From Bacillus sp. FJAT-18017 (lineage in GTDB: Bacteria > Bacillota > Bacilli > Bacillales > Cytobacillaceae), in contig NZ_CP012602.1 of the NCBI RefSeq assembly GCF_001278805.1, positions 3,755,501 to 3,819,500 of the forward strand: a stretch of DNA of 64,000 nt, read 5' to 3'. Below, one piece after another: positions 2,641 to 28,876 of this stretch (position 1 is the first letter of the stretch; each line of letters starts with the position of its first letter). The translations under genes were made by a program, and so were the position numbers. The notes beneath the pieces were generated by a model, which saw only the letters and a program-made list of their open reading frames with translations, was not told the DNA's origin and searched no databases.

Positions 2641-2656
2641 ATTGAAACGTTTCAAT
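2641..2656. promoter_or_regulatory. LacI-type operator upstream of the GH3 promoter
   Basis: A perfect 16-bp palindrome, ATTGAAACGTTTCAAT, with the central CG typical of LacI-family operators. It lies just upstream of the -35 box at 2663. The same 16 bp recur at 28938-28953 in front of the second LacI gene. Confidence 0.8.
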
Positions 2657-2662
2657 TTATCG

Positions 2663-2691
2663 TTGACCACATAATTGAAAGCGTTTATAAT
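2663..2691 (+). promoter_or_regulatory. sigma-A promoter of the GH3-GH94 unit
   Basis: TTGACC (2663-2668) and TATAAT (2686-2691) are separated by 17 bp, a near-consensus sigma-A promoter. An imperfect operator or cre-like sequence (TTGAAAGCGTTTATA, 2675-2689) fills the spacer and touches the -10 box, so either a LacI regulator or CcpA could occlude it. It differs from the cre consensus at one conserved position. Confidence 0.75.
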
Positions 2692-2705
2692 ACAGTCAGA
2701 ATAAC

Positions 2706-2723
2706 AATCGAAACGTTTCGATT
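2706..2723. promoter_or_regulatory. LacI-type operator downstream of the GH3 promoter
   Basis: A perfect 18-bp palindrome, AATCGAAACGTTTCGATT, lying 15 bp after the -10 box, near or just past the expected transcription start. With the operator at 2641-2656 it brackets the promoter, a layout suited to repression by looping or roadblock. Confidence 0.8.
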
Positions 2724-2750
2724 AGTACACTTAGTATTGGAGGACTACCT

Positions 2751-4913
2751 ATGGATGAACAATTACATGCTTTAGTCCAGCAAATGACGTTAGACGAAAA
2801 AATCGGACAGTTACTCCAGTTGGCAACCCCCTTTTTTAAGGGTTCGGAACATGAAGGAGAAATTACAGGGCCAATGGCTGAAATGGGCATTAATGAAGAT
2901 GTTGTGCATAATGCCGGTTCCGTCCTGGGTGTGTCTGGCGCACAGGAGGTAATAACTATTCAAAAAGCGTATTTAGAAGCGAATCGCCTTGGGATCCCAC
3001 TGTTAATGATGGCAGATATTATCCATGGCTATAAAACTATTTTCCCTGTACCTTTAGCGATTGGATGCTCCTGGGATTTGGAACTCGCTGAGAAAAGTGC
3101 TGAAATTGCCGCCAAGGAAGCATCTGTATCGGGTGTTCATGTTACATTTGCTCCTATGGTTGACTTAGTCAGGGACCCTCGCTGGGGCAGAGTCATGGAA
3201 TCCACGGGAGAAGATCCTTATTTAAATAGCCTGTATGCACGTGCCTTCGTGCGGGGATTCCAAGGAAAAGACCTTAAAAATGACCCTGATCGGGTGGCCG
3301 CATGCGTGAAGCACTTTGCAGCCTATGGTGCACCCGAAGGCGGGCGTGACTATAACACCGTAAATATGTCTGAAAGGCAATTACGGGAGTCCTATTTACC
3401 AGCCTATAAAGCCGCACTTGATGAAGGCTGTGAAATGGTCATGACAGCGTTTAATACTGTCGATGGAATCCCTGCCACTGGAAACAAATGGTTAATGCAA
3501 GATTTGCTGCGGGACGAATGGGGATTTGACGGTGTCCTTATTTCCGACTGGGGCGCCGTGAAAGAATTAATCCCCCATGGTGTTGCCGAGGATGGCACTG
3601 AAGCAGCATTGAAAGCACTTCGGGCTGGTGTGGATATCGAAATGATGACAACTTGCTATATCGATAATCTAAAACAGCTTGTCGAATATGGGACTATTGA
3701 CGAAGCGTTGATTGATGAGTCAGTCCTCCGTATTTTGAAATTAAAGCAAAAGCTTGGTCTATTTGAAAACCCGACACGTGGAGCGGATGTAATGCGAGAG
3801 CAAGAAATCGTCCTCAGCGAAGAGCATCGAAGGGCAGCTCGCCAGCTTGCGGTAAAATCGTCTGTTCTTTTAAAGAACGAAGGACCTCTTCTCCCTTTGA
3901 CTCGCGAAAAGAAATTGGCTTTGATTGGACCGTTTGCTAATAACGGCGATATTCTGGGTCCTTGGTCCTGGCAAGGCAGGCAAGAGGATGCCATCACACT
4001 GCTTGAAGGAATTAAGACAAAAACAGAGCCTTCGAACCTTCTAACCTCAAAAGGCTGTGACATTGAAACGGGCACAGCGGATCAGCTCAAAGAAGCGTTG
4101 GAGACTGCCAGCCAGGCAGATATTATCATTCTTGCTTTGGGAGAAAGCTCGCACATGAGTGGCGAAGGAGGCAGCCGGGCCAACATCCGTTTGCCTAAAG
4201 TGCAACTTGAATTAGTTGACCAAATTAAAAAACTTCAAAAGCCAATAGTTGCCGTTTTGTTCAATGGACGCCCGCTTGATTTGCATGGGATTATCGATCA
4301 AGCTGATGCTGTTTTGGAAGCATGGTATCCAGGCACTGAAGGTGGTGCCGCAATAGCTGATCTCTTATTTGGGGATGAGAATCCATCTGGACGTTTGTCA
4401 ATGTCTTTCCCATATTCAGTTGGACAAGTTCCGGTTTACTACAATCATTTTAATACTGGGCGTCCTAAAGTGTCTGAAACATATGAACGCTATGTATCAC
4501 ATTACCTTGATATTCCTAATGAGCCCCGACTTCCATTCGGGTTTGGCCTAAGCTATACAACCTTCCAATACAGTAATGCTGCTATTTCTTCTCAAAGAAT
4601 GAAACAAGGAGACTCGCTCACTGTTTCTGTACATGTTACCAACACCGGACAATTTGCTGGCGAAGAAGTCGTTCAGCTATATATCCGCGATTTGGCAGGA
4701 GAAATTGTCAGGCCTGTAAAGGAATTGAAAGGATATAATAAAATTGCCCTGGAGCCAAATGAAACGAAGGAAGTACAATTCACAATAACTGAAGATATGC
4801 TTCGATACTATCATGAAGACCTTCAATATATAAGCGATCCTGGTACATTCATTGCTTATGTAGGGCCGAACAGCCACGAAATCACTGCTCTGACTTTTAA
4901 ACTAGAAGTATAG
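2751..4913 (+). CDS. GH3 beta-glucosidase (cytoplasmic)
   Basis: A 720-residue glycoside hydrolase family 3 enzyme without signal peptide; TTGGAGG precedes the ATG. Domains in order: an N-terminal TIM-like barrel with the KHF motif (Lys187-His188-Phe189) and nucleophile Asp266 in ISDWGAV; an alpha/beta sandwich with the probable acid/base Glu472 in SGEGGSRA; and a C-terminal fibronectin III-like domain. GH3 enzymes release glucose from the non-reducing end of beta-glucosides. It is followed after 19 bp by a GH94 phosphorylase; the same pairing occurs in Listeria innocua (lin1840 with lin1839), where as I recall the GH3 acts on sophorose and beta-1,2-oligoglucans. I infer a similar job here: finishing off short imported beta-glucooligosaccharides that the phosphorylase leaves. 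Specificity is not readable from the sequence. Operators on its promoter point to LacI control. Confidence 0.93.
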   Translation: MDEQLHALVQQMTLDEKIGQLLQLATPFFKGSEHEGEITGPMAEMGINEDVVHNAGSVLGVSGAQEVITIQKAYLEANRLGIPLLMMADIIHGYKTIFPVPLAIGCSWDLELAEKSAEIAAKEASVSGVHVTFAPMVDLVRDPRWGRVMESTGEDPYLNSLYARAFVRGFQGKDLKNDPDRVAACVKHFAAYGAPEGGRDYNTVNMSERQLRESYLPAYKAALDEGCEMVMTAFNTVDGIPATGNKWLMQDLLRDEWGFDGVLISDWGAVKELIPHGVAEDGTEAALKALRAGVDIEMMTTCYIDNLKQLVEYGTIDEALIDESVLRILKLKQKLGLFENPTRGADVMREQEIVLSEEHRRAARQLAVKSSVLLKNEGPLLPLTREKKLALIGPFANNGDILGPWSWQGRQEDAITLLEGIKTKTEPSNLLTSKGCDIETGTADQLKEALETASQADIIILALGESSHMSGEGGSRANIRLPKVQLELVDQIKKLQKPIVAVLFNGRPLDLHGIIDQADAVLEAWYPGTEGGAAIADLLFGDENPSGRLSMSFPYSVGQVPVYYNHFNTGRPKVSETYERYVSHYLDIPNEPRLPFGFGLSYTTFQYSNAAISSQRMKQGDSLTVSVHVTNTGQFAGEEVVQLYIRDLAGEIVRPVKELKGYNKIALEPNETKEVQFTITEDMLRYYHEDLQYISDPGTFIAYVGPNSHEITALTFKLEV

Positions 4914-4932
4914 AAAATTATGAGGTGAAAAG

Positions 4933-7900
4933 ATGATAAAACAAGATAACGCAACCATCCAGCTCGAAGCGGCCGGCTTGTCCTTCACATTTCTCAACAG
5001 CGGGGACATTTCCGTTGTATCCTACAAAAATGTGATGTTAAACCAGATCATAACAAATCCAATTGATGGTTCCTTAAATAACCTTTACTTGAGGCTATAC
5101 AAGAATGATGGAATCCAAGTTGTACCGTTACTGGGAGTTCATTCGAATAGTCGAATACACTACTCCGATTCACAGGTTTCCTGGGAGGGGGATGCAGACG
5201 AAGTCCGCTATAAAGTAACATTCAGGCTTTCTGACCAGGGTATTTGGTTTTGGGATATTCATCTTTTCGGAACCGACATTGAAGTCGATATCATTTATGG
5301 ACAGGATTTAGGGTTGGCCGATATTGGCGCGGTAAGATCGAATGAAGCTTATATGTCCCAATATATTGATCATAAAGTGTTGGAAGATGAGTCCCTTGGC
5401 CATGTCATTTGTTCCCGACAAAACCAGCCACAATCAACAGGACATCCATACTTGCAGCAAGGTTCCTTAACAAGATCAATCGGATTTTCCACTGATGGTT
5501 TCCAATTTTTTGGCCTTTCCTATAAAGAAACCAATAAACCGGAAGTCTTGACAAAACCATCCCTAGCAAATGAAGTATACCAGTATGAATTTGCTTATAC
5601 AGCACTTCAATCAGAAAAAGTGGCCTTGTCAGGACAGACTCAGTTCGTCTTTTACGGCCTTTTTAAAGCGGATCATTACGATGCAGTCACTGTTTTGGAA
5701 TATCATGAAGAAGTCCAGCGAGCATGGGAGCAAGTAAGGGACATTCACAGCCCAACGACTCCGGTCGTAAAAACATCGCTTTCCACTGAAATTGGAGAAC
5801 CATTAAAAACTCTTTCCATGGATTGTACTGAAATTAACAGCCTCTTCCCCCGCCGCCATCAGGAGGAATGGGAAGGCGACAGGCTTTTATCCTTCTTTAC
5901 AGACACGTATGAACATATCGTGTTAAAAGAAAAGGAATTACTTGTGGAACGCCCAACCGGCCATATAGTCATGACGGCCCAAAATGGTAAACTGAAAGAA
6001 AATACGATTACAACAACAAGTTATATGTACGGGTTATTCAATGCTCAGCTAGTGGTCGGCAATACTTCCATGAACAAACTGTTGACCAATGCCAGGAATC
6101 CGCTAAATGCATTAAAAACATCAGGGCAACGTATTTACGTTGAATTAGAAGGTGGGTATCAGCTCCTCACCATGCCTTCGCTTTTTGAAATGGGCTTTAA
6201 CTATGCTCGCTGGTTTTACAAGACTTCTGACGAAACGTTCATTATTACAAATTTCACAACAGTGGACACACCTGAAGTCCAGCTGAATGTCAAGTCTGCT
6301 AGCGGGAAAGCCTACCGCTATCTTGTTACAAACCAAGTGTCGATGAATAACAATGAGTACGCCGCTCCATTCCATATGGATCAGGACGGAGATATCCTAA
6401 CATTCCGTGCAGATTCTGCTTCTGACAACGCAAGGGTATATCCGAAACTCGCCTATCGGATGAAGGTTTCGGGTACTGAATTCAGCTTATCTGATGAACG
6501 GAAATTTGGTCAGCATTTTATCCCACAATCAGCTTCCCTCGTCGTTCTTGAATTAAGCGCAACACCGACATGGGAACTAACTGTCCAGGGTCTGCTCCAT
6601 GGCGAGGTTCTTCCATTCGTGGAAAGGGAAGCATTAAAGGAAATCGAGAAATATAGGGAACTCCAGCGCGATGTTATGAATGGTTTCAAACTATCCCAAA
6701 AGGACAAGACAACACCTGAACTTGAAAAAGTAAACGCACTTGCGTGGTGGTATACACATAATATGCTCATCCACTTTGCGGTACCGCATGGCCTTGAACA
6801 ATACAGCGGGGCTGCATGGGGAACAAGGGATGTATGCCAGGGTCCTACGGAATATTTCATGGCTACCCAAAATTATGAAGCGGTCCGGGAAATCATTAAA
6901 ACCGTTTTCTCCCATCAATACGAAGAAACCGGTAATTGGCCGCAATGGTTTATGTTCGATAAATACGTGAACATCCAATCCCACGAAAGCCATGGCGATA
7001 TTATTGTTTGGCCGCTAAAAATGATAACCGATTATCTAACTGCAACTGGTGATTTCAGCATTCTACATGAAGAAGTCCCCTATACAACAACAACTAGTTA
7101 TCAGTTTACGGAACATACAGCCCCTATCTGGGATCATGTACAAAAAGAAATCGATTATATAAAGGACAATTTCCTTCATGGTACTTATTTGTCTTCATAT
7201 GGTGATGGTGACTGGGACGACACGCTTCAACCTGCAAATGCGCAGCTAAAGCACTATATGGTTAGCAGTTGGACTGTTTCACTGACCTACCAGGTCCTCA
7301 ATCACCTATCCAGCGTATTGGAGTCTGCCAATGTAAAAGAAGCGGCCGAATTGAAACAGCTCGCTTCCGGGATTGAAGCCGACTTTAACAAATACATTTT
7401 GCAAACTGATGTAATTCCTGGCTTTGTTTATATGGAGCACCCGGAAAAAGCCGAATTAATGCTCCATCCGAATGATACCAAAACAGGCATCAACTACCGC
7501 CTCCTCCCAATGACCCGGAGCATGATCAGTGAATTGTTTACTCCAGAGCAAGCTGAAAGACATTATCAGCTTATCAAAGATAAATTATTCTGCCCGGACG
7601 GTGTACGGCTAATGAATCGGCCTGCAAACTATGTTGGTGGAGTCAGTGTAAATTTCAAACGTGCTGAACAGGCGGCTAATTTTGGCCGTGAAATCGGTCT
7701 TCAATATGTACATGCGCATATTCGATTCATTGAAGCAATGGCCAAACTGGGGAAAGTGGATGAAGTTTGGAACGGCTTACAGGTTATTAACCCGATTGGA
7801 ATAAAGGAAGTGGTGCCAAATGCAGATATCCGCCAGAGCAATACTTACTTTAGCAGTTCGGATGGAAAATTCAAATCACGTTATGAAGCACAGGAACGTT

Positions 7901-8274
7901 TCGACGAATTAAGATTAGGTACTGTTCCGGTTAAAGGCGGCTGGCGCATCTACTCCAGCGGCCCAGGAATCTATATGAACCAGTTAATTTCAAACTGCTT
8001 GGGTATTCGCTTCCAGGATACAGATTTAATAATTGACCCTATTCTTCCGGAACAATTCAATGGGTTGCATTTTGACTTTGAAATCTTGGATGTCCCTGTA
8101 ACCTTTGTCTATCATTCAGACTCCAAGGGCCGAAAAAATGTTGTTGTAAACGGTAATAGACTGGATGCAGAGATTGTTTCCAACCGTTATCGCGAGGGCG
8201 GGCTAAGAATTAACCGTAGCCAGCTTGCTGAAATCTTAAATAAAGCCGATAATGTCATTGAAGTCTTTCTATAG
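4933..8274 (+). CDS. GH94 phosphorylase, 1,2-beta-oligoglucan phosphorylase-like
   Basis: A 1113-residue GH94 (formerly GT36) protein with GAGGTG before the ATG and no signal peptide. N-terminal beta-sandwich regions (about residues 1-550) precede the (alpha/alpha)6 catalytic barrel. The barrel shows the family's motifs: GAAWGTRDVCQGP, 'NWPQWFMFDKY', SHGDIIVWP, and GDGDWDDT at residues 757-764, which carries the general-acid Asp (near Asp760). GH94 enzymes cleave beta-glucosidic bonds with phosphate, giving a glucose-1-phosphate-type product and saving ATP. The length is well above the roughly 800 residues of cellobiose phosphorylases and close to sophorooligosaccharide phosphorylases. The GH3 neighbour and LacI gene also match that system. 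Beta-1,2 specificity is therefore likely but inferred; cellodextrin or laminaribiose phosphorylase are the alternatives. A hairpin follows the stop. Confidence 0.88.
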   Translation: MIKQDNATIQLEAAGLSFTFLNSGDISVVSYKNVMLNQIITNPIDGSLNNLYLRLYKNDGIQVVPLLGVHSNSRIHYSDSQVSWEGDADEVRYKVTFRLSDQGIWFWDIHLFGTDIEVDIIYGQDLGLADIGAVRSNEAYMSQYIDHKVLEDESLGHVICSRQNQPQSTGHPYLQQGSLTRSIGFSTDGFQFFGLSYKETNKPEVLTKPSLANEVYQYEFAYTALQSEKVALSGQTQFVFYGLFKADHYDAVTVLEYHEEVQRAWEQVRDIHSPTTPVVKTSLSTEIGEPLKTLSMDCTEINSLFPRRHQEEWEGDRLLSFFTDTYEHIVLKEKELLVERPTGHIVMTAQNGKLKENTITTTSYMYGLFNAQLVVGNTSMNKLLTNARNPLNALKTSGQRIYVELEGGYQLLTMPSLFEMGFNYARWFYKTSDETFIITNFTTVDTPEVQLNVKSASGKAYRYLVTNQVSMNNNEYAAPFHMDQDGDILTFRADSASDNARVYPKLAYRMKVSGTEFSLSDERKFGQHFIPQSASLVVLELSATPTWELTVQGLLHGEVLPFVEREALKEIEKYRELQRDVMNGFKLSQKDKTTPELEKVNALAWWYTHNMLIHFAVPHGLEQYSGAAWGTRDVCQGPTEYFMATQNYEAVREIIKTVFSHQYEETGNWPQWFMFDKYVNIQSHESHGDIIVWPLKMITDYLTATGDFSILHEEVPYTTTTSYQFTEHTAPIWDHVQKEIDYIKDNFLHGTYLSSYGDGDWDDTLQPANAQLKHYMVSSWTVSLTYQVLNHLSSVLESANVKEAAELKQLASGIEADFNKYILQTDVIPGFVYMEHPEKAELMLHPNDTKTGINYRLLPMTRSMISELFTPEQAERHYQLIKDKLFCPDGVRLMNRPANYVGGVSVNFKRAEQAANFGREIGLQYVHAHIRFIEAMAKLGKVDEVWNGLQVINPIGIKEVVPNADIRQSNTYFSSSDGKFKSRYEAQERFDELRLGTVPVKGGWRIYSSGPGIYMNQLISNCLGIRFQDTDLIIDPILPEQFNGLHFDFEILDVPVTFVYHSDSKGRKNVVVNGNRLDAEIVSNRYREGGLRINRSQLAEILNKADNVIEVFL

Positions 8275-8280
8275 AAAAAT

Positions 8281-8307
8281 GGTCGGCGGTTTGGTGAACC
8301 GCCGACC
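8281..8307 (+). terminator. hairpin terminator/attenuator after GH94
   Basis: An 11-bp GC-rich stem (8281-8291 with 8297-8307) and a 5-nt loop, followed by CTCTTTATTG. The U-tract is short, so some read-through into the LacI gene 54 bp downstream is likely. Confidence 0.6.
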
Positions 8308-8361
8308 CTCTTTATTGTTGAAAACCCAGAAGTGTAAAGATGATCATGAGGTGATACGTGT

Positions 8362-9339
8362 TTGGTAAATATTAAAGATATCGCAAAACAAGCTGGTGTC
8401 TCAATTTCCACGGTTTCCTATGCCTTAAATGGAAGCCAAAAGGTTACCCCAGAAACGACTGCTAAAATTTTAGCCATAGCAAAAGAGCTAAACTATACTC
8501 CGAATGCAGCTGCAAGAAACCTGAAAAGAAGGGAAACAAAAATTATCGGAGCGTTTTTCGCTGAATATTCGGGCGCTTTTTATGGCCAGCTGCTGAAAGG
8601 AATGCGCCGGACGCTTTCCCAAAACGGCTATGATCTAATTGTCTGCAGCGGTGCACAATCACAGCGTTTCATACCTGAAAGGATGATTGATGGGGCCATA
8701 ATTCTAGATGAGGCATTTTCCACTGATGAAATTCTCCGATATGCGAATCTAGGCCACAAACTAGTCGTTCTTGATCGTGAGGTTAACCACCCTAATATTA
8801 CAAAAGTGTTACTCGATAATAAAAATGGCTCTCATCTGGCAATCGGGTACTTTGAGAAGCAAAATTTCAAGAACATTTACATTCTGTCTGGCCCGGAAGG
8901 TTCTTATGATACAAAACAGCGTCTTAAAGGCCTGCTGGAAGCTTTAGAAACAAGAAACCATATGAACATTGAAGTAATGGGCGGAGATTTTACAAAGTCT
9001 GCTGGAGAAGTAGCAGCAAAGCAACTGGTGGAATCCTATTCACATCCCGTCGCCATATTTTGCCTGAATGATGAAATGGCGATTGGCATGTACAATTACC
9101 TGTCAAAAACTGAATACCGAGTTGGAGAGCATTTTCATATTATCGGTTTCGATAACATCGAGGTTTCGAATTATCTTAAGCCACGCTTAACAACTATTGA
9201 TTATTCGAAGGAAGATTGGGGAGCAATCGCTGCCGGGCAATTAATGAGGCTGCTTACAAACGAGCCAGGCGAAGACCAGCAAATCCCCGTAACGCTCCTG
9301 GAGGGCAAATCGGTAAACAAATATAACCCATCTAATTAA
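8362..9339 (+). CDS. LacI-family transcriptional regulator (first copy)
   Basis: A 325-residue LacI/GalR regulator. The start is TTG, chosen because GAGGTGAT lies 8 bases upstream and the helix-turn-helix begins at once ('IKDIAKQAGVSISTVSYALN'). The hinge helix (AAARNLKRR) is followed by a periplasmic-binding-like effector domain with LDREV and SYDTKQRLKGLLEAL, regions that line the sugar pocket in this family. It sits behind the GH3-GH94 pair, beyond a weak terminator. It resembles the second LacI protein at 27905-28876 in the same pocket segments, so both may answer to related oligosaccharides. It is a good candidate to bind the TGAAACGTTTCA operators at 2641-2723; I cannot tell which of the two proteins binds which site. 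Confidence 0.92.
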   Translation: MVNIKDIAKQAGVSISTVSYALNGSQKVTPETTAKILAIAKELNYTPNAAARNLKRRETKIIGAFFAEYSGAFYGQLLKGMRRTLSQNGYDLIVCSGAQSQRFIPERMIDGAIILDEAFSTDEILRYANLGHKLVVLDREVNHPNITKVLLDNKNGSHLAIGYFEKQNFKNIYILSGPEGSYDTKQRLKGLLEALETRNHMNIEVMGGDFTKSAGEVAAKQLVESYSHPVAIFCLNDEMAIGMYNYLSKTEYRVGEHFHIIGFDNIEVSNYLKPRLTTIDYSKEDWGAIAAGQLMRLLTNEPGEDQQIPVTLLEGKSVNKYNPSN

Positions 9340-9352
9340 CGTTCAGTATACC

Positions 9353-9392
9353 AAAAGCCCGTTGACCCAATTTACCGTGTCAACGGGCTTTT
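9353..9392. terminator. bidirectional terminator between lacI and the GH144-like gene
   Basis: A perfect 14-bp stem (9353-9366 with 9379-9392), with AAAA on the left arm and TTTT on the right. It sits between two convergent stop codons (9339 and 9399) and can serve both. Confidence 0.8.
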
Positions 9393-9398
9393 CGCTTG

Positions 9399-10667
9399 TT
9401 ATGCTTTAACTAGACGCTCAGTAAAGAATGACATTCCACGTTTAAAAGCAGCTAACCCATAAAGCATGGAACTCCAATCAATAAGAGTAACCTTAGTTGG
9501 ATACCATCTCTCTGGCTGCTCGAGATGCCACCATGAATATCGGTGCAACCCATACTTATAGGCGTCTCTCAACTTTTGTTCATCTTCCCCATCCTCTGGA
9601 TTGGTATACCGATCATATGGAATATGAATACTATACAGCGCATAAAGGTCATGGATTCCGGCAGGATACACTGGCAAGAAACCTGCCACGATGTAGGCCG
9701 AAGCTATATTATGTGGTGCATTATTGATTTTATCCGCATGGTAGCCTCCAAACAATCCGTCATTGGGTCCTGCTCCATACCCCCAGACGTACGATGGAAC
9801 ATCATTCAATTCCTTCCACTTCAAACGGTCCGCCATGCAGGCATTCTCATAAAACTCTCGATACGTCGGGCTTTCAGCATATTCCGGCACTAGAAAAAAC
9901 GGGAATTGATGTACAAAGGATGACAAGAAAGCTGAAGCATCATGATCAGTAAGGACTGGAATGTCGCGATAGTGGATTTGCGGAAGCTTCCTAATTTGCT
10001 CTTCAGCAAAATTATTATTCCATAAATCCTGGATATCCGCGTCTTCAGGCTGGCAAAGCTTCGCAAGATAAGACACCAATACATATTCGTTGTAAGCAGG
10101 AAGCGGGAGAGTCCCCTCTCCATCCTTTACAACCATATTGATAATCCCCTTATCTTTATCATGAACAACGACTCGCCAATCAATAGATTTCAAAAGTTGG
10201 GCTGCCAGTTCGGCGACTTGGGGATTTTCTTTTTTGAAGTGCTGTCCCGCAAAAAGGGCCCCGGCAACTAGCAAGGACGTATCAATGGTCGAAATTTCCG
10301 AGTGAAGGTTCTCCCCTGTTTCCATATCAACGAAATGAGCAAAGAAACCCGTTTTCTCATCCCTTGCGACCCGGCAGCCTTCCACTTCACCAAGGCATGC
10401 TTTCAGTGTAAGGACGGCCTTCTCAGCTGCCTGCTTATCCCAGTCTTCCATATCGGCTACAGCAAGGCTTATAAGACCTACTCCAGTAGCAGCAATTGAG
10501 CACCGGTTATCGGGATTTTCACCTAAGGTCATGTAGCCATCAGCATATAATCCTGTTCTAGGGTTGCGGCTGGCCTCAAAAAGCTCATATGAATCCTTGT
10601 ACTGACGGTCAAAAAACACTTTCACCTTATTAGGCAGCTGCTGATAATCTTTTGTTACCTGGGACAT
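9399..10667 (-). CDS. glycoamylase-domain / GH144-like glycosidase
   Basis: A 422-residue protein without signal peptide. An ATG at 10685 also opens the frame, but it overlaps the ribosome binding site AAGAGGAG; the ATG at 10667, 7 bases after that site, is the better start. The sequence has the features of an all-helical (alpha/alpha)6 protein with the 'FFAHFVDMETGE', 'IDTSLLVAGALFAGQHF', VWGYGAGPND and final helical segments that I associate with the glycoamylase domain found in GH144 beta-1,2-glucanases. Known GH144 members include endo-beta-1,2-glucanases and exo-acting sophorohydrolases. Being cytoplasmic, this one would act on imported oligosaccharides. It is the last gene of the 12-gene operon, directly after the first GH35 (stop and upstream ATG abut). 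The family call is by motif memory and moderate; another six-hairpin glycosidase is possible. Confidence 0.6.
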   Translation of the reverse strand: MSQVTKDYQQLPNKVKVFFDRQYKDSYELFEASRNPRTGLYADGYMTLGENPDNRCSIAATGVGLISLAVADMEDWDKQAAEKAVLTLKACLGEVEGCRVARDEKTGFFAHFVDMETGENLHSEISTIDTSLLVAGALFAGQHFKKENPQVAELAAQLLKSIDWRVVVHDKDKGIINMVVKDGEGTLPLPAYNEYVLVSYLAKLCQPEDADIQDLWNNNFAEEQIRKLPQIHYRDIPVLTDHDASAFLSSFVHQFPFFLVPEYAESPTYREFYENACMADRLKWKELNDVPSYVWGYGAGPNDGLFGGYHADKINNAPHNIASAYIVAGFLPVYPAGIHDLYALYSIHIPYDRYTNPEDGEDEQKLRDAYKYGLHRYSWWHLEQPERWYPTKVTLIDWSSMLYGLAAFKRGMSFFTERLVKA

Positions 10668-10685
10668 GTCAACACTCCTCTTCAT

Positions 10686-14124: not shown

Positions 14125-14140
14125 TTTGAACCCATCCTTT

Positions 14141-19290: not shown

Positions 19291-20166
19291 CTACTTGATT
19301 CCTGAATGAGCCATTGTATTCATTACCTGGCTTTGAAGAATGATAAAAATAATTAAGTTTGGAATGAACATTATCAATGAAGCCGCTGCTGCCAAACCCT
19401 GTCCAGCAACGCTATTGCCAGCCGTTGAAGTCAGCGTGGTCATGTAAAAAGCAAACGTCTTCAATCCCTCGTCATTAACGTACAAGGTTGAGCTTTCTGT
19501 GCTGTTCCAAACAAGCTGGAAAGACAATATCGCTACTGTAGCAATTGCAGGCTTTACCAAAGGGACAATGATCCGCAGAAAAATCTGAAAGTCCGATGCA
19601 CCGTCCAATTTGGCAGCTTCAATTAATTCATCCGGTATTTGATCGATGAACTGCTTGACAAGGAACAGCCCTATTGGCATTGCCAGCAGTGGTACAATAT
19701 GGACCAAAAAGTTATTGATCAAACCCATTTCTTCTATTAATAAATATCTCGGAATTGATACCGCTGCAGGTACGAACATTAAAGCAATTGTATTAATTTC
19801 AAAAATGATCTTTTTTGATTTAAATTCTTTTTTAGATAACGCATATCCGGCCATCGTGCTAATTAAAATCGTTAAGAAGACAACGATCAGGGTGATGACA
19901 ATGCTATTGAACAAATACCGGGACATTGGTACCCCTGTAGCGTTTGCCTGGCCGAACAAATCAGTGAAATTTTGCAATGTCGGCTTTTCGACAAAAAAGC
20001 GTGGCGGATAGGCGAATAATTCATCGATTGGCTTAAAAGCATGGAAAAAGATAAACACAATCGGCAAAGCCATGAAAACCGCCATCGGAATTAAAAACAC
20101 AAGAAACTTTATTTGGCTTTTATGGAACTTTGACGGATTCATTTTTGTTCCTTGAAAAGCAGACAT
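19291..20166 (-). CDS. CUT1 sugar ABC permease (MalG type)
   Basis: A 291-residue permease with six membrane helices and the EAA loop ([20 protein letters not shown]). A GTG at 20175 also opens the frame, but GGGAG overlaps it and sits properly before the ATG at 20166, which I chose. It pairs with the permease at 20185-21075, with 18 bp between them. Its position directly after the 980-residue solute-binding protein suggests these three form one importer, while the 13177/14141 pair forms the second. No ATPase is present locally. Confidence 0.9.
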
Positions 20167-20184
20167 ACCATTCACTCCCAGTTG

Positions 20185-21075
20185 TTAATCCTTTTCTCCA
20201 AACAGCCTCCACGCCACTTTTGAAAATGCATATACTACGATAAGCAGAACAACTGAAATAGCTGCAGCATATCCCATTTCATACCGGATGAATCCATAGT
20301 CCTCCAGATGATTGACCATTAACTGACCCGCGTATTGAGGCGTTGGGTTTGCCCCTGAAAGGGCAACGCCGATTGCACCGGCCTGGAATGTTCCTACAAC
20401 AGCCATTACCGCACCGAACAGCATCTGTGGTTTCATCGACGGGATGGTAATGTAGATAACCTCCTGGAACCGATTTCTTATTCCATCTATATATCCAGCT
20501 TCATAAATTTCCGTATTGATGTTCAAAATCCCTGACAGCATAGCCAGGAATCCGACACCCATGCTCCCCCAGAGCGTAACGAAAATCATGATTTTCATAA
20601 GGTATTCTGGAGACTGGAGCCACTGAATCGGCTCAAAGAGTACACCCATCGTAATCAGGATACTGTTTAAATATCCGGTCTGGTCCCCGCTAAAGATAAT
20701 GGTCCAGACGACAGCCATAGCCACACCTGCAGTCATTGAAGGAGAATAAATGATCAATGCAAGGAGTGTCCTTAATTTGCTTGGTACCTGTGCTAGTGTC
20801 CATGCAAGTATAAAAGAAAGAATGTACCCGCCTGGTCCTACTATTAACGCAAAAGTCAGCGTATTAGGGACTATTCGTTGCATAAAGACTTCATCTTGTG
20901 TGATCAGGCTGACATAGTTGCTCAACCCGATAGGCTTTGGCGTTTCGATTGCGTTGAAGTACGTAAACGACAACAGAATCGCCGCAACGACTGGGATTAT
21001 GATAAATGCCGTAAAAAATAGAATATATGGACCAAGGAAAAACCATTGGCTTAGGTCCCGCTTAGTTTTCTTCAT
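20185..21075 (-). CDS. CUT1 sugar ABC permease (MalF type)
   Basis: A 296-residue permease ('[20 protein letters not shown]' at the start, EAA loop [20 protein letters not shown]). The EAA loop is degenerate: the usual second Ala is Gly and the usual Ala-Gly after the Asp is changed. The frame is open to 21108, but the ATG at 21075 gives the normal short charged N-terminus ([10 protein letters not shown]). This start overlaps the end of the solute-binding protein gene by 14 nt, so translation is coupled. It would form the channel for the large 980-residue receptor together with the next permease. Confidence 0.88.
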
Positions 21076-24004
21076 TTTCTTCGCCTGCCCAACTTTCCAC
21101 CTGCTCAATGGTAGGGATTGGATATGGCTTCACGACCTTACCGTTCTTCATATAGCCAAACTCCTCCATTTTGCGGGAAATCTCTCTATCAATTGCGATG
21201 ATTGAATCGTCTACAGCAGATCTCGTATTCTCACCATCAAACACGATCCGATTCCATATGTTACTTAGTTCACGTTCTACCATGTAAGCTCCAGGGGTTT
21301 TCGGTACCTCCTGCAAATATTCCCATTGCTCTAAAATGGTCTCTTTGTGTTCTTCAGGCCATGGCAGTTCATTGAAAGCTTCCAAGTTGGCTGTGTTCCA
21401 CATATATTCTGGCCCGTACAGTGTTTGGAGGCTTGATGCATATTCTGTTTGCGTTTCAGTGGACATCCACCATTTTAAAAGCTCCCATGACTTCTCTTTA
21501 TCTTTAGTGCCCTTGAAAATCATTGCGGACTGGCCAGATCCTGTTGCCCACCGCTCAATTGTTCCATCCTCCTGCTTCACCCCAGGGTGAGGGGTGATGT
21601 CCCACCATCCGGCAATTTCAGGCGCGGCAGATGTCAATTGGACATAGGTTGTGAAATTTGAAATCCCTATCGGCATAGTGGCATACCTGAAGTGATTGTA
21701 AAAATTCGGAACCTGAAGCGGCAGACTGTAAATCGTATTGAGTTCTGCCATAAACTGAATACCCTTCAACGCTTCCTCCGTTCCAATCGCTGTTCTCATC
21801 CCATCTTGTTCATAAAGGTCTCCCTGGAACTGATAAATATATGGAGCGGTTGTTTGAAATGGCTTGAAACCACCGGCGCCAGAAATCGGAGTGTAGTAAT
21901 TCATACCGAATCTTTGCAGCTCCGGCAATATATTTACGACTTCTTCCCAATCATCAGGAACGGGAAAATTCATCGCATCCATGATGTCTTTCCTATAAAA
22001 CTGGACAAAGAAATCCTGTGTCTCCGGTAGAGCATAAACAGAATCCTCTATCATTAACGGTAGGAATGCTCCTGGTGAAAACTTCTTACTAAAAGCTTCG
22101 AAATCTTTGAATTGATGCAGGTCAACGGCCGCTCCACGGATGGACAACTCGTAAGGGAGCCAGTTGCTTATGCCTAGGGCAACGTCAGGCTGTTTATTTG
22201 CGGCACTAGATAAAATCAATTTGGATTCGTCAGGCATTAGTGAAAACTTAACGGGAATACCCGTTTCAGGGGTAAACGTCCTGTCGGCTAAATTCTGCAG
22301 CTGCTCCACATATTGGCGGGGGCGATTGACCCATATCTCAATCGTTTCATCGTCTGTATTGTCAACAGTGTAATTTCCTGATGTAAAGGAAAGTGCAAAG
22401 CGTTGAACGCTGCTCCATGCCTTTTCAATAAAATTAATCCTTGCCGCCGGAAGTTCTAGATCCCCATGAAGGTAAAAGCGATCTACAAGAAGCGGCTGTT
22501 TCGGCAAATCCACCAATAGATTACCAAGGAGCTGAGCTACTGAGGAGGATCCTTCTGACAGCTCCGTCATCCTATTCGGGATTTCATCCGGTTTCTTGCT
22601 CAATTCCTTAAGTTTTTGGACAGCCAATTGAAGGGAAACGATTTCGCTGGAATCGTTATCTGTATCACTTAAACTTTTTAAATAACTTCTTTCTTCATCC
22701 AAAATTACGGCCCACCGCTCGACACGGTCCTTAATATCCGGGATATACTCGCTAATTTTCCAACCACGGGCACGATTTGTTTGGTTGCCTGTCAACTTTT
22801 TAATAGAAAGAGAGAGTGCTTCAATTTCCTTCATAACCTCATTTGTTGTATGAACTACCCTTTCAATTTGGGAAGCATCTGCTTCCAGGCCAATAGTGTG
22901 GTTGCCTTTAGTCAAATAAAAGAGGAACGGCTCGCCTTTTTGATCTGACAGAGTCACATTTGACCACTTTTTGTTAAATTCGAATGTATAGGGAGCCACT
23001 TCCGAAAAAGGTATTTGGCCATCAATCGATACCTTTCTAAAAACAGGTGCCCCGGTGTTTTTATTCTGCTGGACTTTAAAGGTCAATTGATAAAAACCGT
23101 CTTTTTCAATTTCTACGTTCCAATTAACACTCTGGCCGCTCGTTGCCCATGAGTCCCCGCCAAGGGTATTCAATAATAATGTCTTGGGATTGCTTGGCAC
23201 GGCAGAAGCGTCAGTAGAAGCAAATGGCCTAATGTATGAGCTGTTTTTCGTATAATTCGTTTCGGCCTCGTTAATTATTAAATCCTTAACTTGCTTGCCC
23301 TCGTAATTCTTCACATACTCGTTATATGAAGGAAGAGTTGTAACCGAAGTCACCGTAAGTTTTCCAAGGAGCATTTCTCCCCGCAAATTGGAAAGCTCAA
23401 TCACGTTTGTTCCTTTTTTCAATAAGTACTTCAATGCGCCTGGCTGCAAGCCACTTGCATCCTCGGCTTTAGCGCTTCTCCATTTGTTTACAGTTAGTTG
23501 CTGCGGGATGATTTCGTTGCCAAAACGGTCTTTCTCAAAATCATCTGTTTCGTTCTTCCACTCGACTGGGAAAACGATACGCCTGCTTTCATAATAAGGG
23601 AACTTTCCGTTTACCAGGATTGCGCCCTCTATTGGAATAACCTTGTTACTCAAAGGGTAATAATCAAATGAAAGTTCGTATAAACCCTCTTTAGGCACTT
23701 GAATTTCATATGTTACGGATTGCCGATTATGCCAATAGAAAACACTATCCCCATATCCTTTGCTCTCAGAAGCTGTCAAAAGATCCTGTTTGTCACTTCC
23801 AATTGAATTGGAAGAAGGGACGGACACCTCAAAATTCGAGGCGTCCAGAACTCCTTGCTCCTTCCATTGTTCAAGGACGGAATGATAGCGTTCTTCTACG
23901 ATATTTTCGGCCGGCACTGTTTCATTATTGTCAGCAGATGCAAACCCGTGTGGAAAGATGAAGAACAGCACCATTACCGAATATATAAGTATCTTAGACT
24001 TCAT
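21062..24004 (-). CDS. large extracellular solute-binding protein with N-terminal carbohydrate-binding-like modules
   Basis: A 980-residue exported protein, about twice the size of an ordinary sugar receptor. A signal peptide (ending near FASAD, without a lipobox cysteine) is followed by two beta-rich segments at about residues 85-230 and 280-380. Both contain the pattern '[12 protein letters not shown]' / '[12 protein letters not shown]' and look like repeated CBM-type modules. A helical region at about 385-520 follows, then a bacterial extracellular solute-binding domain from about 540 ('[18 protein letters not shown]', '[18 protein letters not shown]', [15 protein letters not shown]). It probably captures long or wall-bound glycan chains and hands them to the permeases whose first gene overlaps its stop codon. 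How it stays at the cell surface without a lipid anchor is unclear. GGGAGG precedes the ATG. Confidence 0.85.
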
Positions 24005-24029
24005 ACTATCAACCTCCCAAATTCCTTGG

Positions 24030-25412
24030 CTACTTCCCTTCTAAAGCTGCCGCTGCTTCAGCGCTCTTTTTGTCAGCCAATTCGTCCAATTGTTTCGCAT
24101 AGTCTTCAACTTTCAATTCTCCCTTTACGAAAGCATTGACAAGCTGAGCTGTATTTGCATTTTCCGCTTCAGATGTTTTCACGCCAGTAAGTGCTTCCCA
24201 ACGTGCATCAACATAACCAGGTACGATCTTAACAGGTTCAACAATTGCTTTATCTAAATTCTCATATGCTGTGCGGATGCCAGGTACATCAAGAATTGAA
24301 AAGAATTCATCAAGTACTTCTTTATCTGTTGTAATTGGCAGTGTATTCAAAGCCTTGCCTTCTTTATCAGCGATTTCCAAACGTTTCATGAATCCTTCTT
24401 TGCCAAAAGACATGAATTTAGCAAACAAGTACGCTTCTTCTGGATGCTTGCTAGTTTTTGAAATTCCCAGGTAGTCATTTGCAATTGCTGTTACACCGCC
24501 AGGCAAGCCGATGAAGTCCCACTCGAACCCAGCCTTTTCACTGATGTTTGACGCTGCCCAAGTACCATCCCACCAAAGGCCAATGCTTCCCGCAAGCCAG
24601 TTTTCATTTCCTTCTTTACCTGTAAACTTGGCCTTCTGATCTTCTGTTAACGTGTCATAAGCATAACCGTTCAAAACAAATTCCTTCGATACATTTACAC
24701 CATTGATATACTCTTTGCTATCAAGCGCGTATTGTCCATCCTTCAATGTGTACCAGCCCATATCAGGATTCACTGCAGATGGATACCAGTCTACGATGGT
24801 GAAAGGATTGTTAAGTCCAACTACCCCGTTATTTACATTTGTTACTTCTTTTACTCCGGATACGAAATCTTCAACTGAAGAATCGAATTCAGGATGGTCA
24901 AGGTTTGCTGCATTGAAGACATCCTTGTTTACAAAGTAACCCAGGAAATGCTGCGCAGCTGGCAGTGCAACCAGCTTGCCGTTAACTTCAGCGGAGTCCC
25001 TGACAATTTCCGGCACTGCTTCAAAATCCTTATCTTTTGATGCCAATTCAGTAACATCCAATAGCCAGTCATTTGATAATGCTAGAGGAATCTGTGGCAA
25101 TGCAAATACATCCGGCATTGTTCCGCCACTCGCTGCTGTTGCCAATGTGCCATTCCAATCACTTGTATTAACTGTTTCATTGAGTTCGATTTTGATATGT
25201 GGGTATTCTTCCTTGAAGGATTCAAGCAACAAGCGTTCCAAATTGTTTTCTTCTTCCGTACCCAAATTCCAGTTGGCATAGGAAAGAGTTACTTCTTTTT
25301 TCTTTTCAGTTTCGTCTTTTTTGTCTGAGTCAGCTTTTTCTGCATTGTTACAAGCAGCCAGAGTAAAAACGACAGTAAATGCAGCAAGAATAGAAACTAG
25401 CTTCTTTTTCAT
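24030..25412 (-). CDS. sugar-binding lipoprotein of ABC importer
   Basis: A 460-residue solute-binding lipoprotein. The frame extends to 25481, but GGGAGA before the ATG at 25412 and the lipoprotein signal peptide (MKKKLVSILAAF ... LAAC) fix the start. The lipobox cysteine is residue 20. A charged linker leads to the two-lobed binding domain ('VTLSYANWNLGTEEENNLER', 'GGTMPDVFALPQIPLA', 'LWWDGTWAASNISEKAGFEW'), a CUT1-type oligosaccharide receptor. In Listeria innocua the matching locus encodes a receptor for beta-1,2-glucooligosaccharides of similar type; that this one is its counterpart is inference. It is encoded between GH35 copy 2 and the large receptor. It has no permease pair directly beside it, so it may use either pair. 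Confidence 0.9.
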   Translation of the reverse strand: MKKKLVSILAAFTVVFTLAACNNAEKADSDKKDETEKKKEVTLSYANWNLGTEEENNLERLLLESFKEEYPHIKIELNETVNTSDWNGTLATAASGGTMPDVFALPQIPLALSNDWLLDVTELASKDKDFEAVPEIVRDSAEVNGKLVALPAAQHFLGYFVNKDVFNAANLDHPEFDSSVEDFVSGVKEVTNVNNGVVGLNNPFTIVDWYPSAVNPDMGWYTLKDGQYALDSKEYINGVNVSKEFVLNGYAYDTLTEDQKAKFTGKEGNENWLAGSIGLWWDGTWAASNISEKAGFEWDFIGLPGGVTAIANDYLGISKTSKHPEEAYLFAKFMSFGKEGFMKRLEIADKEGKALNTLPITTDKEVLDEFFSILDVPGIRTAYENLDKAIVEPVKIVPGYVDARWEALTGVKTSEAENANTAQLVNAFVKGELKVEDYAKQLDELADKKSAEAAAALEGK

Positions 25413-25522
25413 AAATGACTCTCCCTTAAAATTTTTAGGTTTTGTGCTGTGAAGATAAATGTTTTCCTTTAATAACAGCATAAATCTGTTCCTGGGACGG
25501 TTTGACTGAGAGTCCCTTTCCG

Positions 25523-27889
25523 TTACTGCTTGCGCTGGAACTTAATCGTTTGTTTATCTCTGTTTGAGGTTACCACCACCTTAAATTGTTCATGATTTAG
25601 GTTTACGAGTTTTGTTGTTTCCGATAAAGAAGGAACCCATTCTGAAGAATTGAAAATGAACTCTTCCTCTTCCTGAGTGACCCTAATAGTCAAAAGAAGC
25701 TCGTCCTCATTTTCTTCAACTCTATATATCTCTCCAGTTCCATAGGAAATGGTTAAACCTTTTTGCAATTGAACATCCACTGGAAGCATTAGCCCTGTTC
25801 GAGGAGGAACAACAAGTTTCTTTCCTCCAAAAAGCTCCTGTCCTTCATACCTGAATGAAGTAACTTTCTTGTATTCATCAAAATTTTGAACAAAGAGAAA
25901 TTTGCCTCCATCTGAATCCTGCCGAACCGTAATATCAAGTTCTTCCTCAATATTGAACCTGCTTGATATACCTGCTTTCTTCGCAAGCTCAATGACACAG
26001 TCGAATTGATGGTTGAAATTGAACTCCATTCCAATCCCGAACATGATGATTTTTCCTTTTCCAAGCTGCTTTTCAAAAGCAATTGTGTTTCGGTCCGTAT
26101 CTTCGCTCCAAGCAAAAGCTCCGTCCTGGATATTATAAGTTTCCATATACTCAGCCTGTACATTGTCTACTTCCCCAATATGAGCAAAACCCCGGGTTTT
26201 ATGACCTGAAACTTCAACACCGATAAAATCCTTCAACACGGTACAAGGCTCGTTTTTCATCGTTTTAATAGGCATTGTTGGGAACATGATCAACTGGCCG
26301 CCATTTTCGATATAGCTGACAAGCTTTTTCTGAACTTTTTCGTCCATCCACTCAGTTGTGAACATCCACAAAACCGGAACTTCATTAGGGGTAATCTCGG
26401 CTTCATCCATAACGTTGACGCCTTCAAAGATGATGTTATTCGTTCTTAGTCCCTTAGCGATTCCGTTATAGAAGTATACTTCCCGTCCGTGCTGAAGCTT
26501 GTCCACCATGCTTTTTGTATGTTCATCATAGAATTCTGTCATGTAATAATCAGGATAAAAACCAAGATGGGTGTCAATTACTTGCTTTGTACGAGAAAGT
26601 GGTTGTTCAAATGTTTTGAACATTTCACCTAGATGTTGAATGACAAAGTAGTGAGGCCGTCTTTCACCTTTAGTTGAGAGTGGTGCCTGCCATTCATGAC
26701 GTCTTCCAAACAGGCCGATATTTTCGTAATTCTCACCACCAGCAAACATGTAATAATTGACGCCGTTCATCCCATCTGCAACACAAAGCCTAGTGGTCAA
26801 ATCAAACGTTGTCGGCTGGAGCCTTGGTTTATCATGAATTGAGCCACCCTGGAATTCTGCCGAAAACAATGGTTGTTCTTTCCATTGAATAGCCTTCGTA
26901 AATGCATTAGCTAGAACGATATCAATGTAGTTATCGTATTCAATGTTTCCTATATAGTAATCACCCGCCATCAATACGTTTTCAATTTTCGCTGCTTCCA
27001 AAAGCTGTGAAAGCCCGATTGGATACATCGTGCCCCGCTTCAGAATATCAACAGTGTGAAAACCATGGACATTGACGACGAATGGAACATTGATTCCTTT
27101 TGCTTCTGCAGAATGTTTCAGAATCTCCAGGAATTTACGATAGTGCTCCCGCAAGAACAACCCAAATTCATTTCTGAGGGCGTGTGCGTTTATTGCATCA
27201 GGTTTTTTGACGGCTAAATGTGAAACCTCGTTCATTTTGTTATAAGGGACTTTGAAAGTATTTTCAAAGTTGTCGTATGTATATTTGTCCTTTAAATACT
27301 CTTCAAATTGGGTTAACGTCGCTTCATTATAATCAGGCTGATTGGTGACCCAATGGAACATTCCTACCTCGTTATCAATTTGAAAAAGAATGACCGGTCC
27401 ACCATTCGTAACCTGGTAAGGTGAAATAACTTCACAAACCTCGCTATACCAGTTCTCAGTTTTTTCAAGGAAAACGGGATGCGTATAACTAGCTACCCTT
27501 GTCGGATGGTTATTACCATCATTTGTTTTAGCTACAGCTTCCGGATACTTGTCAATGAACCAGGTAGGAACTCCGTGATCAACAACTTCAGCCATCACAT
27601 AAGGGCCTGGCCGAACAAGGCAATACATTCCTTCCTCGTTTACGAGCCGCAGAAATGTCTCCAAATCTCTCTCAGGCAAGGTTCGCCCAGTCAGATCAAC
27701 TTCACCTTCTTCGAATTCATGAAAAATCCAGGGTACATAGGTGCTGATCATATTTGCACCCGCCTCTTTTATCAGGCGGATCCGGTTTCTCCACTCCCCT
27801 TTTGGAACCCGGAAGTAATGAAGCTCCCCGCCAAAAAGAATGACGTCTCTTCCGTTAATGACTACTCTTTCATCCTTGATTTGAATCAT
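25523..27889 (-). CDS. GH35 family glycosidase (copy 2, start of operon)
   Basis: A 788-residue GH35 protein, cytoplasmic, with GAGGTGGG before the ATG. It is a clear paralogue of the GH35 at 10686-13097: both open with the 'I.I....I.G....I..GE.HY.R' pattern and share the barrel motifs. The acid/base candidate is Glu174 in QIDNEVG, at exactly the same position as in copy 1, and the nucleophile candidate is Glu345 in SAEFQGG. The residues right after each nucleophile differ (QGG here, NCG in copy 1), so substrate preference may differ. It is encoded 15 bp after the LacI gene and is the first structural gene of the operon. The likely role is cutting an imported beta-linked oligosaccharide; galactose or glucose specificity cannot be told. 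Confidence 0.88.
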   Translation of the reverse strand: MIQIKDERVVINGRDVILFGGELHYFRVPKGEWRNRIRLIKEAGANMISTYVPWIFHEFEEGEVDLTGRTLPERDLETFLRLVNEEGMYCLVRPGPYVMAEVVDHGVPTWFIDKYPEAVAKTNDGNNHPTRVASYTHPVFLEKTENWYSEVCEVISPYQVTNGGPVILFQIDNEVGMFHWVTNQPDYNEATLTQFEEYLKDKYTYDNFENTFKVPYNKMNEVSHLAVKKPDAINAHALRNEFGLFLREHYRKFLEILKHSAEAKGINVPFVVNVHGFHTVDILKRGTMYPIGLSQLLEAAKIENVLMAGDYYIGNIEYDNYIDIVLANAFTKAIQWKEQPLFSAEFQGGSIHDKPRLQPTTFDLTTRLCVADGMNGVNYYMFAGGENYENIGLFGRRHEWQAPLSTKGERRPHYFVIQHLGEMFKTFEQPLSRTKQVIDTHLGFYPDYYMTEFYDEHTKSMVDKLQHGREVYFYNGIAKGLRTNNIIFEGVNVMDEAEITPNEVPVLWMFTTEWMDEKVQKKLVSYIENGGQLIMFPTMPIKTMKNEPCTVLKDFIGVEVSGHKTRGFAHIGEVDNVQAEYMETYNIQDGAFAWSEDTDRNTIAFEKQLGKGKIIMFGIGMEFNFNHQFDCVIELAKKAGISSRFNIEEELDITVRQDSDGGKFLFVQNFDEYKKVTSFRYEGQELFGGKKLVVPPRTGLMLPVDVQLQKGLTISYGTGEIYRVEENEDELLLTIRVTQEEEEFIFNSSEWVPSLSETTKLVNLNHEQFKVVVTSNRDKQTIKFQRKQ

Positions 27890-27904
27890 ATTCCCACCTC
27901 GAAA

Positions 27905-28876
27905 TCATCCAGAATTTCTTGACATTAATTCAATCCTTAACGGTTCCGGTACATAATCAAACTGTTTATCAAGGAGTTTAAATAATGTTTGGGCGGCAAT
28001 TATCCCCCACTCTTTCCGAGGAACCCTTATTGTTGTTAAAGATGGGGTGAAATATTGAGCAACATAAATATCATCAAAGCCAATGACTGCGATATCCCCA
28101 GGTACATCCAGCCCCTTTTCCTTTACAGCCCTTATTGCTCCCATCGCCATCTCATCATTGGCGCATACGAATGCGCTCGGTAAATCGCTGCCCATGCGCT
28201 CCAAGTACTCACTCATACTTTGATAACCACTTAACTCGGTAAAATCCGCTCTCAGGATATCCTGTTCCTGAAAACTTAGTTTTTGTAGCTTAAGCCCTTC
28301 CAAGAAACCGTTAAACCGGGATTCGCCATCATACGATAGCTGTGAACCCGAGATAAAGCCAATCCTTTTGTGCCCTTTATCAACAAGATAGTCCACGACT
28401 CTGACCGAGCCCAGGGCATTTGGAAGGAGGATATTCCTTATAAACGGGCTCTTCACCTCCCTGTCCATGACAATCAGTGGAAGCTTTTCATTTGCTATAG
28501 ATAGGAGTAATTCATCATCCATATGGAAATTCAGAATAATTGCTCCATCCACATAGCGTTCTATCAGCAACCGGTGCTTATCGACTGAAGCGCATACAAC
28601 CAACTCATATCCGTTCTTTATGACTTCATCCTGAATGCCTTCAACCATTTCCGAGAAAAAAGGTCCTGTAAACCCACTCAGAAACAAGCCAATAATATTA
28701 GTCTTCCTTTCCTTTAGGTTTTTTGCCAGCCCATTCGGGCGGTAGCCTATCTCCTTTACAACCTCCAGAACCTTTTGCCTAGTTTCTTCTGAAATAAGGC
28801 TGCTGCCATTTATTGAATAAGACGCAGTAGAAACACTGACACCAGCCTGTTTTGCCACATCTTTTAACGTTACCAC
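27905..28876 (-). CDS. LacI-family transcriptional regulator (second copy)
   Basis: A 323-residue LacI/GalR regulator. The frame is open to 28924, but the GTG at 28876 behind AGAGGGTGGAG gives the standard N-terminus (VTLKDVAKQAGVSVSTASYS). The hinge region NGLAKNLKERK is followed by the effector domain with MDREV and SYDGESRFNGFLEGL. It is the first gene of the 12-gene operon, and its promoter and leader carry four copies of the TGAAACGTTTCA operator, so autoregulation is very likely. It is similar throughout to the LacI protein at 8362-9339. The operon's sugar transporters and glycosidases would be induced when an imported oligosaccharide binds it; this follows from family knowledge. Confidence 0.93.
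   Translation of the reverse strand: MVTLKDVAKQAGVSVSTASYSINGSSLISEETRQKVLEVVKEIGYRPNGLAKNLKERKTNIIGLFLSGFTGPFFSEMVEGIQDEVIKNGYELVVCASVDKHRLLIERYVDGAIILNFHMDDELLLSIANEKLPLIVMDREVKSPFIRNILLPNALGSVRVVDYLVDKGHKRIGFISGSQLSYDGESRFNGFLEGLKLQKLSFQEQDILRADFTELSGYQSMSEYLERMGSDLPSAFVCANDEMAMGAIRAVKEKGLDVPGDIAVIGFDDIYVAQYFTPSLTTIRVPRKEWGIIAAQTLFKLLDKQFDYVPEPLRIELMSRNSG

Follow-up and report, generated by a model that had tools for sequence, protein, structure and literature searches.

The closest described relative of the system analysed here is the lin1839-lin1841 region of Listeria innocua, which combines a glycoside hydrolase family 94 (GH94) enzyme of the 1,2-beta-oligoglucan phosphorylase (SOGP) type with permeases, a LacI-family regulator, a GH3 enzyme and a binding protein; we take Lin1840 to be the beta-glucosidase and Lin1841 the binding protein of this beta-1,2-oligoglucan locus. 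Individual proteins from other systems are also relevant, among them 8xuk (H744_1c0222) and 8xul (XCC2207), which we take to be beta-1,2-glucanase structures, the GH144 protein 5gzh and the GH35 beta-1,2-glucosyltransferase 7vkx/7vkw, presumably from Ignavibacterium album. We compared these with a locus of Bacillus sp. FJAT-18017 that lies in a 64,000-nucleotide stretch (contig NZ_CP012602.1, positions 3,755,501 to 3,819,500), called the window below. The host genome is a single contig of 5.27 Mb, and the comparison set held 151 genomes, its own and those of relatives (G numbers denote genomes and L numbers sampled loci). Sequence, gene linkage and a shared operator support the proposal of the initial annotation that this is an expanded beta-1,2-glucan locus on a Listeria-type GH94, GH3 and LacI core. 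Judged from its genes, the locus is probably a regulon for the uptake and degradation of beta-1,2-glucan chains from other bacteria.

The core is a plus-strand unit at 2751-9339. It encodes a predicted GH3 beta-glucosidase of 720 residues (2751..4913; Pfam GH3 N-terminal, C-terminal and Fn3-like domains), a GH94 enzyme of 1113 residues (4933..8274) and the LacI-family regulator LacI1 (8362..9339; Pfam). The GH94 enzyme contains the SOGP N-terminal, supersandwich and C-terminal domains (SOGP_N, SOGP_2nd and SOGP_4th) together with the GH94 catalytic domain, all four above the Pfam cut-off, and its residues 3-1098 align with the solved 1,2-beta-oligoglucan phosphorylase 5h3z at 1036 bits. Its next solved matches are cyclic beta-1,2-glucan synthases, at 39 bits, and cellobiose phosphorylases, at about 23 bits, so that by bit score it is not nearer to the latter; none of its eight matches is named a laminaribiose phosphorylase. 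PF06165, the general GH94 supersandwich model, has no match in the host genome, whereas the SOGP-specific models do match. Although the protein had been described as oversized, its length is normal for the SOGP type, the 5h3z chain having 1122 residues. Its assignment to the 1,2-beta-oligoglucan phosphorylase type is thus supported by sequence. The best solved relative of the GH3 enzyme is Lin1840 (1.5e-242). We judged export from a hydropathy scan of the protein sequences, and neither GH3 nor GH94 has a hydrophobic N-terminus or segment; the GH3 enzyme is probably cytoplasmic. Together with LacI and a Lin1841-like binding domain, here one domain within a 980-residue protein, these genes complete the Listeria-type combination that had been recognised. 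An SOGP-type GH94 is present in 26 of the 151 genomes.

The core unit converges on a minus-strand unit of 12 genes across a gap of 59 bp that contained no recognisable terminator or promoter consensus. This unit runs from LacI2 (28924) down to a gene for a 428-residue protein (9399), in the order LacI2, GH35a, a 483-residue binding protein, the 980-residue binding protein, a permease pair, an NHL/YIP1 protein, DUF5696, a second permease pair, GH35b and the 428-residue protein. All genes named in the initial annotation are present about where it placed them. Its end point at 28876 falls short, however: the locus extends at least to a sulfatase gene (32027-33496) and probably on to 35757, which takes in an anaerobic maturase and a gene of phosphoesterase fold. 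What sets the window apart from the Listeria innocua locus is the presence of two permease pairs and two GH35 enzymes, of DUF5696 and NHL/YIP1, of a giant binding protein with CBMs, of an intracellular glucanase-like protein, and of a maturase and a sulfatase, the latter behind the same operator. Separately, the gap between GH94 and LacI1 contains a strong hairpin (8281-8307; -22 kcal/mol, z -4.8) that lacks a long T run; it may stabilise the GH94 transcript or reduce the expression of LacI1.

A shared operator connects the parts of the locus. Two perfect copies of the palindrome WTYGAAACGTTTCRAW, at 2641-2656 and 2707-2722 upstream of GH3, flank a promoter-like TTGACC/TATAAT sequence. Three further sites cover the start and promoter of LacI2 (27905..28924, minus strand; Pfam) within 28893..29008, at 28893 (one mismatch), 28938 and 28993, the first of them inside the longest LacI2 frame. 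Another, with one mismatch, is located after a TATAAT at 31970..31985, 41 bp upstream of the sulfatase start. The whole genome has seven sites with at most one mismatch, six of them in this locus, against four for the reversed control pattern. When the window was shuffled 100 times, no shuffle reached six sites even at up to two mismatches (mean 0.49). The operator also recurs in relatives: when up to two mismatches are allowed, 25 of the 26 SOGP genomes have it near GH3, GH94, a binding protein or LacI (L027 standing for G019), the exception being G014, a 5.6-kb contig. At this threshold, a manual tally over all the sequences examined for it gave 100 sites, and 18 for the reversed pattern. 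Perfect sites, also counted by hand, occur in 19 of the 26 SOGP genomes and 21 of the 125 others; the reversed control is present in none of the 26 and in 13 of the 125. In four of the 19 genomes the perfect sites lie away from the SOGP genes, on other contigs (G014, G148), about 1 Mb off (G096) or at a second, cassette-bearing locus (G136). We infer that LacI-type repressors bind TTGAAACGTTTCAA-like palindromes at three promoters. At 2676-2687, overlapping the GH3 -10 region, there is also the sequence TGAAAGCGTTTA, which we take to be like a catabolite-responsive element (cre); it recurs upstream of GH3 in several relatives, which suggests carbon catabolite control.

The last gene of the minus-strand unit encodes a candidate intracellular beta-1,2-glucanase of 428 residues, SGL428 (9399..10685). 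It matches 8xuk over nearly its full length (1.2e-34, residues 24-422) and 8xul weakly (1.1e-9), shows no hydrophobic N-terminus, and has an aspartate and a glutamate, D135 and E200, that are invariant across 18 aligned relatives. The initial annotation had called it glycoamylase/GH144-like. The lack of any Pfam match up to E 0.01 rules out the 'glycoamylase' family PF10091; SGL428 is GH144-like only at a distance. A comparison up to E 1 gave it no match to 5gzh itself, and relatives encode GH144-like proteins at the same end of the operon. In the window the order there is permA, GH35b, SGL428. A GH144-like protein lies between permA and GH35b in G003, and similar proteins lie beside permA in G112 and G136; by locus, the position is between permA and GH35b in L062 and L066 and after permA in L064. 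The G003 protein is GH144-like by its matches to 5gzh ('Endo-beta-1,2-glucanase', 1.8e-42), 8xul (8.6e-58) and PF10091, a family matched by proteins of L062, L071 (8281-9597) and L116. Relatives of SGL428 occur in nine of the 151 genomes, all nine of which also have an SOGP-type GH94 (hypergeometric p 3.5e-8, phylogeny ignored); the genomes are phylogenetically related, so our p-values are indicative only. Six of the nine have orthologs over nearly the full length at 71% identity or more, and the other three (G003, G112, G136) have partial-length matches at 29-35%. As a side observation, a lone SGL428 ortholog follows an oppositely oriented, AraC-like-looking gene in L032, L035 and L036 (about 9000-11300).

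Two GH35 enzymes, DUF5696, NHL/YIP1 and the sulfatase had been singled out as extra enzymes outside the known pathway. This description may not fit the GH35 enzymes, which match a beta-1,2-glucosyltransferase; DUF5696 and NHL/YIP1 turn out to be general importer parts, and the sulfatase lies behind the same operator as the core. GH35a (788 residues; 25523..27889, minus strand) resembles a beta-1,2-glucosyltransferase, matching 7vkx at 311 bits compared with 232 for the next GH35 type. GH35b (10686..13097, minus strand) has 803 residues when read from the ATG at 13097, a likelier start than the first-listed TTG, which overlaps the upstream gene; its best match is 7vkw (1.3e-51), at 178.8 bits against 165.4 for other GH35 structures. 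The two paralogs are 31% identical, and neither has a hydrophobic segment. At a threshold of 1e-30, GH35a is matched in 11 of the 151 genomes, ten of which carry an SOGP-type GH94. With a beta-1,2-glucosyltransferase as the best solved match of both, if narrowly for GH35b, neither GH35 enzyme has to fall outside a beta-1,2-glucan pathway.

The middle of the minus-strand unit is a cassette of seven genes, SBP980-permD-permC-NHL/YIP1-DUF5696-permB-permA, whose order is identical in all 15 genomes examined for it. It comprises permease pair A/B (315 and 286 residues; 13177..15001), DUF5696 (752 residues; 15004..17262), a membrane protein with NHL repeats, TPR and YIP1 (672 residues; 17255..19273; Pfam, membrane segments), permease pair C/D (294 and 307 residues; 19291..21108) and the 980-residue binding protein (21062..24004), both permease pairs being assigned by BPD_transp_1. 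The binding protein consists of two CBM-like beta-sandwiches, a helical part and the solute-binding domain, and the best solved match of a profile of this protein and its relatives is Lin1841 (5.5e-28). Next to the cassette lies a lipoprotein-type solute-binding protein of 483 residues (24030..25481, minus strand), which matches PDB 22hh (1.8e-97), named only 'Extracellular solute-binding protein family 1'. The initial annotation spoke of two ABC (ATP-binding cassette) importers; there are indeed two permease pairs, but both belong to this one cassette, and the 12 genes of the unit encode no ABC ATPase. Elsewhere the cassette stands beside GH43 or arabinofuranosidase/xylosidase-type genes (L073, L074), and the few cassette neighbours tested in L075, L076 and L077 gave no clue to the polymer. 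We conclude that DUF5696, NHL/YIP1 and the 980-residue binding protein are components of an importer cassette of general use; we know of no such Gram-positive polysaccharide importer.

DUF5696 has the same fold as the GH129 family (5wzn, 5opq, 8rzk), with weak sequence similarity (5wzn, 3.5e-7), and differs from it as part of an importer cassette with an N-terminal hydrophobic segment. It had no match in the PHROGs library. Among 26 aligned members, E647 alone in the barrel region is invariably acidic (D or E), and acidic barrel positions vary among close orthologs, with E, G, R or Q at the LY-x-PN position. We set aside the idea that DUF5696 is a plain beta-1,2-glucan enzyme in view of the GH43 and arabinofuranosidase settings of the cassette.

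Beyond LacI2, the single operator site at 31970 precedes the gene for a sulfatase-family enzyme of 489 residues (32027..33496, plus strand; Pfam and PDB matches). The protein has the formylglycine motif CAPSR (C-x-P-S-R) and is probably cytoplasmic, with no hydrophobic segment. Among solved structures it comes closest to a sulfatase-family protein, a phosphonate monoester hydrolase and a galactose-6-sulfatase. Adjoining it are an anaerobic sulfatase maturase (anSME; 423 residues; 33544..34815, minus strand; NCBIfam TIGR03942, 396 bits, cut-off 349) and then a possibly associated endonuclease/exonuclease/phosphatase-family enzyme of 256 residues (34987..35757, plus strand; PF03372). Sulfatase matches at 1e-20 occur in 13 of the 151 genomes. 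Orthologs of at least 71% identity are found in four (G000, G019, G122, G141), each with the SGL428 gene on the same contig, no more than about 25 kb away. The sulfatase ortholog lies directly upstream of the SGL428 gene in L030, L033 and L037 (72-76%) and likewise in L068 (G141), and L071 (G122) has sulfatase, GH35a and SGL428 genes in succession; L030, L037 and L068 also carry a formylglycine-generating enzyme (FGE) and a phosphoesterase-fold gene. Looser matches (48-51%) lie between GH35a and a maturase in G014 (L111) and about 8 kb from SOGP in G148. Among genomes with a sulfatase of at least 48%, six of seven have SOGP (hypergeometric p 9.5e-5, phylogeny ignored). Because it carries the same operator, the sulfatase is probably no bystander of the locus, and its presence would point to a decorated substrate, with either sulfate or a phosphodiester. 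To our knowledge, no sulfatase-family enzyme has been linked to beta-1,2-glucan metabolism. Relatives of the phosphoesterase-fold gene at 84% and 51% are linked in G019 and G141; as a specific marker the gene was rejected, the family occurring in 18 of the 151 genomes with only the three best (G000, G019, G141) near SOGP.

Other Bacillales have simpler SOGP loci, which we call type A (e.g. L081, L116, L117, L124, L126). They share GH3, GH94, LacI1 and the same operator palindrome with the window but have a single binding protein of about 420 residues and one permease pair, with no seven-gene cassette within the stretch fetched. Type A loci often include an exported glycoamylase/DUF3131-type protein (Pfam-tested in L116 only). 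Esterase-family genes adjoin several of them (L079 at 7409-8176 and L072 by Pfam; L119, L121, L123 and L127 by similarity) and may remove acyl groups from substituted glucans. Alpha-amylase-family genes lie between GH94 and LacI1 in L117 (7176-8837; PF00128) and, by look, in L080, L116, L124 and L125. In the window, an ABC exporter and DUF1854 pair at 29107-31823, whose best matches are cyanophycin-associated NCBIfam models below their cut-offs, is placed within the locus both here and in G019 (L114).

Taken together, the genes suggest the following pathway. The source polymer would be, for example, the cyclic or linear periplasmic glucans of other bacteria. Outside the cell, the 980-residue binding protein, the exported GH129-fold DUF5696 and the NHL/YIP1 membrane protein would capture the polymer and pass it to one or both permease pairs, with import presumably energised by a shared ATPase encoded elsewhere. 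Because the degrading enzymes have no hydrophobic N-terminus, breakdown is probably intracellular. There SGL428 would cut the chains, and a cytoplasmic hydrolase of the formylglycine type, matured by the product of the adjacent gene, would remove substituents; GH94 would phosphorolyse the chains to glucose 1-phosphate, GH3 would split the remainder, and the GH35 enzymes would transfer or trim glucosyl groups. LacI-type repressors would control the three promoters. We put forward, tentatively, a more specific version, in which the cassette is an importer for long chains that combines two permease pairs with a giant receptor bearing CBMs, a membrane hub of beta-propeller and YIP1 parts, and a pseudo-glycosidase of GH129 fold. 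Periplasmic glucans can carry substituents such as phosphoglycerol, and here the importer would take up beta-1,2-glucans from Gram-negative bacteria whole, with their decorations in place. In the cytoplasm they would be stripped by a formylglycine hydrolase, which may be a phosphodiesterase that removes phosphoglycerol together with the phosphoesterase-fold enzyme, before the intracellular glucanase and phosphorylase act.

We doubt, but take seriously, an alternative in which the locus serves ordinary, unsubstituted sophorooligosaccharides or cyclic beta-1,2-glucan, and the sulfatase, maturase and phosphoesterase-like gene act on another compound and share only the regulator. Just one of 17 Listeria-like (type A) SOGP loci has such a sulfatase (L072, 50%), no operator precedes the sulfatase-SGL428 operons in L030 and L033, and we know of no sulfated beta-1,2-glucan. 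Nevertheless, a sulfatase ortholog and the SGL428 gene share one operon at L030, L033, L037, L068 and L071, and the same operator precedes the sulfatase in the window and, with two mismatches, in G019. A role for DUF5696 as an active extracellular glycosidase, founding a new GH129-related family and trimming the polymer before import, seems rather unlikely to us compared with a non-catalytic importer part: the same cassette position is kept at loci for other polymers, and the barrel acidic positions vary even between close orthologs. Quite improbable is a mixed polymer, such as a glucomannan or beta-1,2-glucan bearing side groups of galactosyl or glucosaminyl type, which the GH35 enzymes would attack as exo-beta-galactosidases or glucosaminidases. 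GH35b does match glucosyltransferase and exo-glucosaminidase/galactosidase structures almost equally; GH35a, however, clearly prefers the beta-1,2-glucosyltransferase and tracks SOGP presence.

Several points weigh against a dedicated beta-1,2-glucan regulon with its own importer and desubstituting enzyme. What the analysis establishes directly is which genes are present, the families they belong to, their linkage and the operator sequences that they share; substrates, directions and all enzyme activities we infer. GH35b is only marginally closer to the glucosyltransferase than to other GH35 enzymes, and at four of 11 loci with an SGL428 ortholog (L032, L034, L035, L036) no other gene of the locus occurs within 10 kb of it. 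The solute-binding half of the 980-residue protein was modelled with low confidence, and DUF5696 might be catalytic. Phosphonate monoester hydrolases match the sulfatase about equally well, so that it may cleave a phosphodiester or a sulfate ester, and G001 has a 51% sulfatase beside a maturase (L110) and no SOGP. The operator in the sulfatase start region of G019 (L114:15200) has two mismatches. In L030 and L033 the sulfatase-SGL428 operon is preceded by an AraC gene (by Pfam in L030, by look in L033) and by no such operator, and shared operator control is therefore not universal.

If our interpretation is true, the locus would explain how Gram-positive members of the Bacillus group feed on periplasmic glucans from their Gram-negative neighbours, and it would tie a sulfatase-family enzyme to beta-1,2-glucan metabolism. 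The DUF5696 and NHL/YIP1 proteins would gain a testable role in polymer import, and the shared operator offers a simple genetic handle on whether each gene belongs to the locus.

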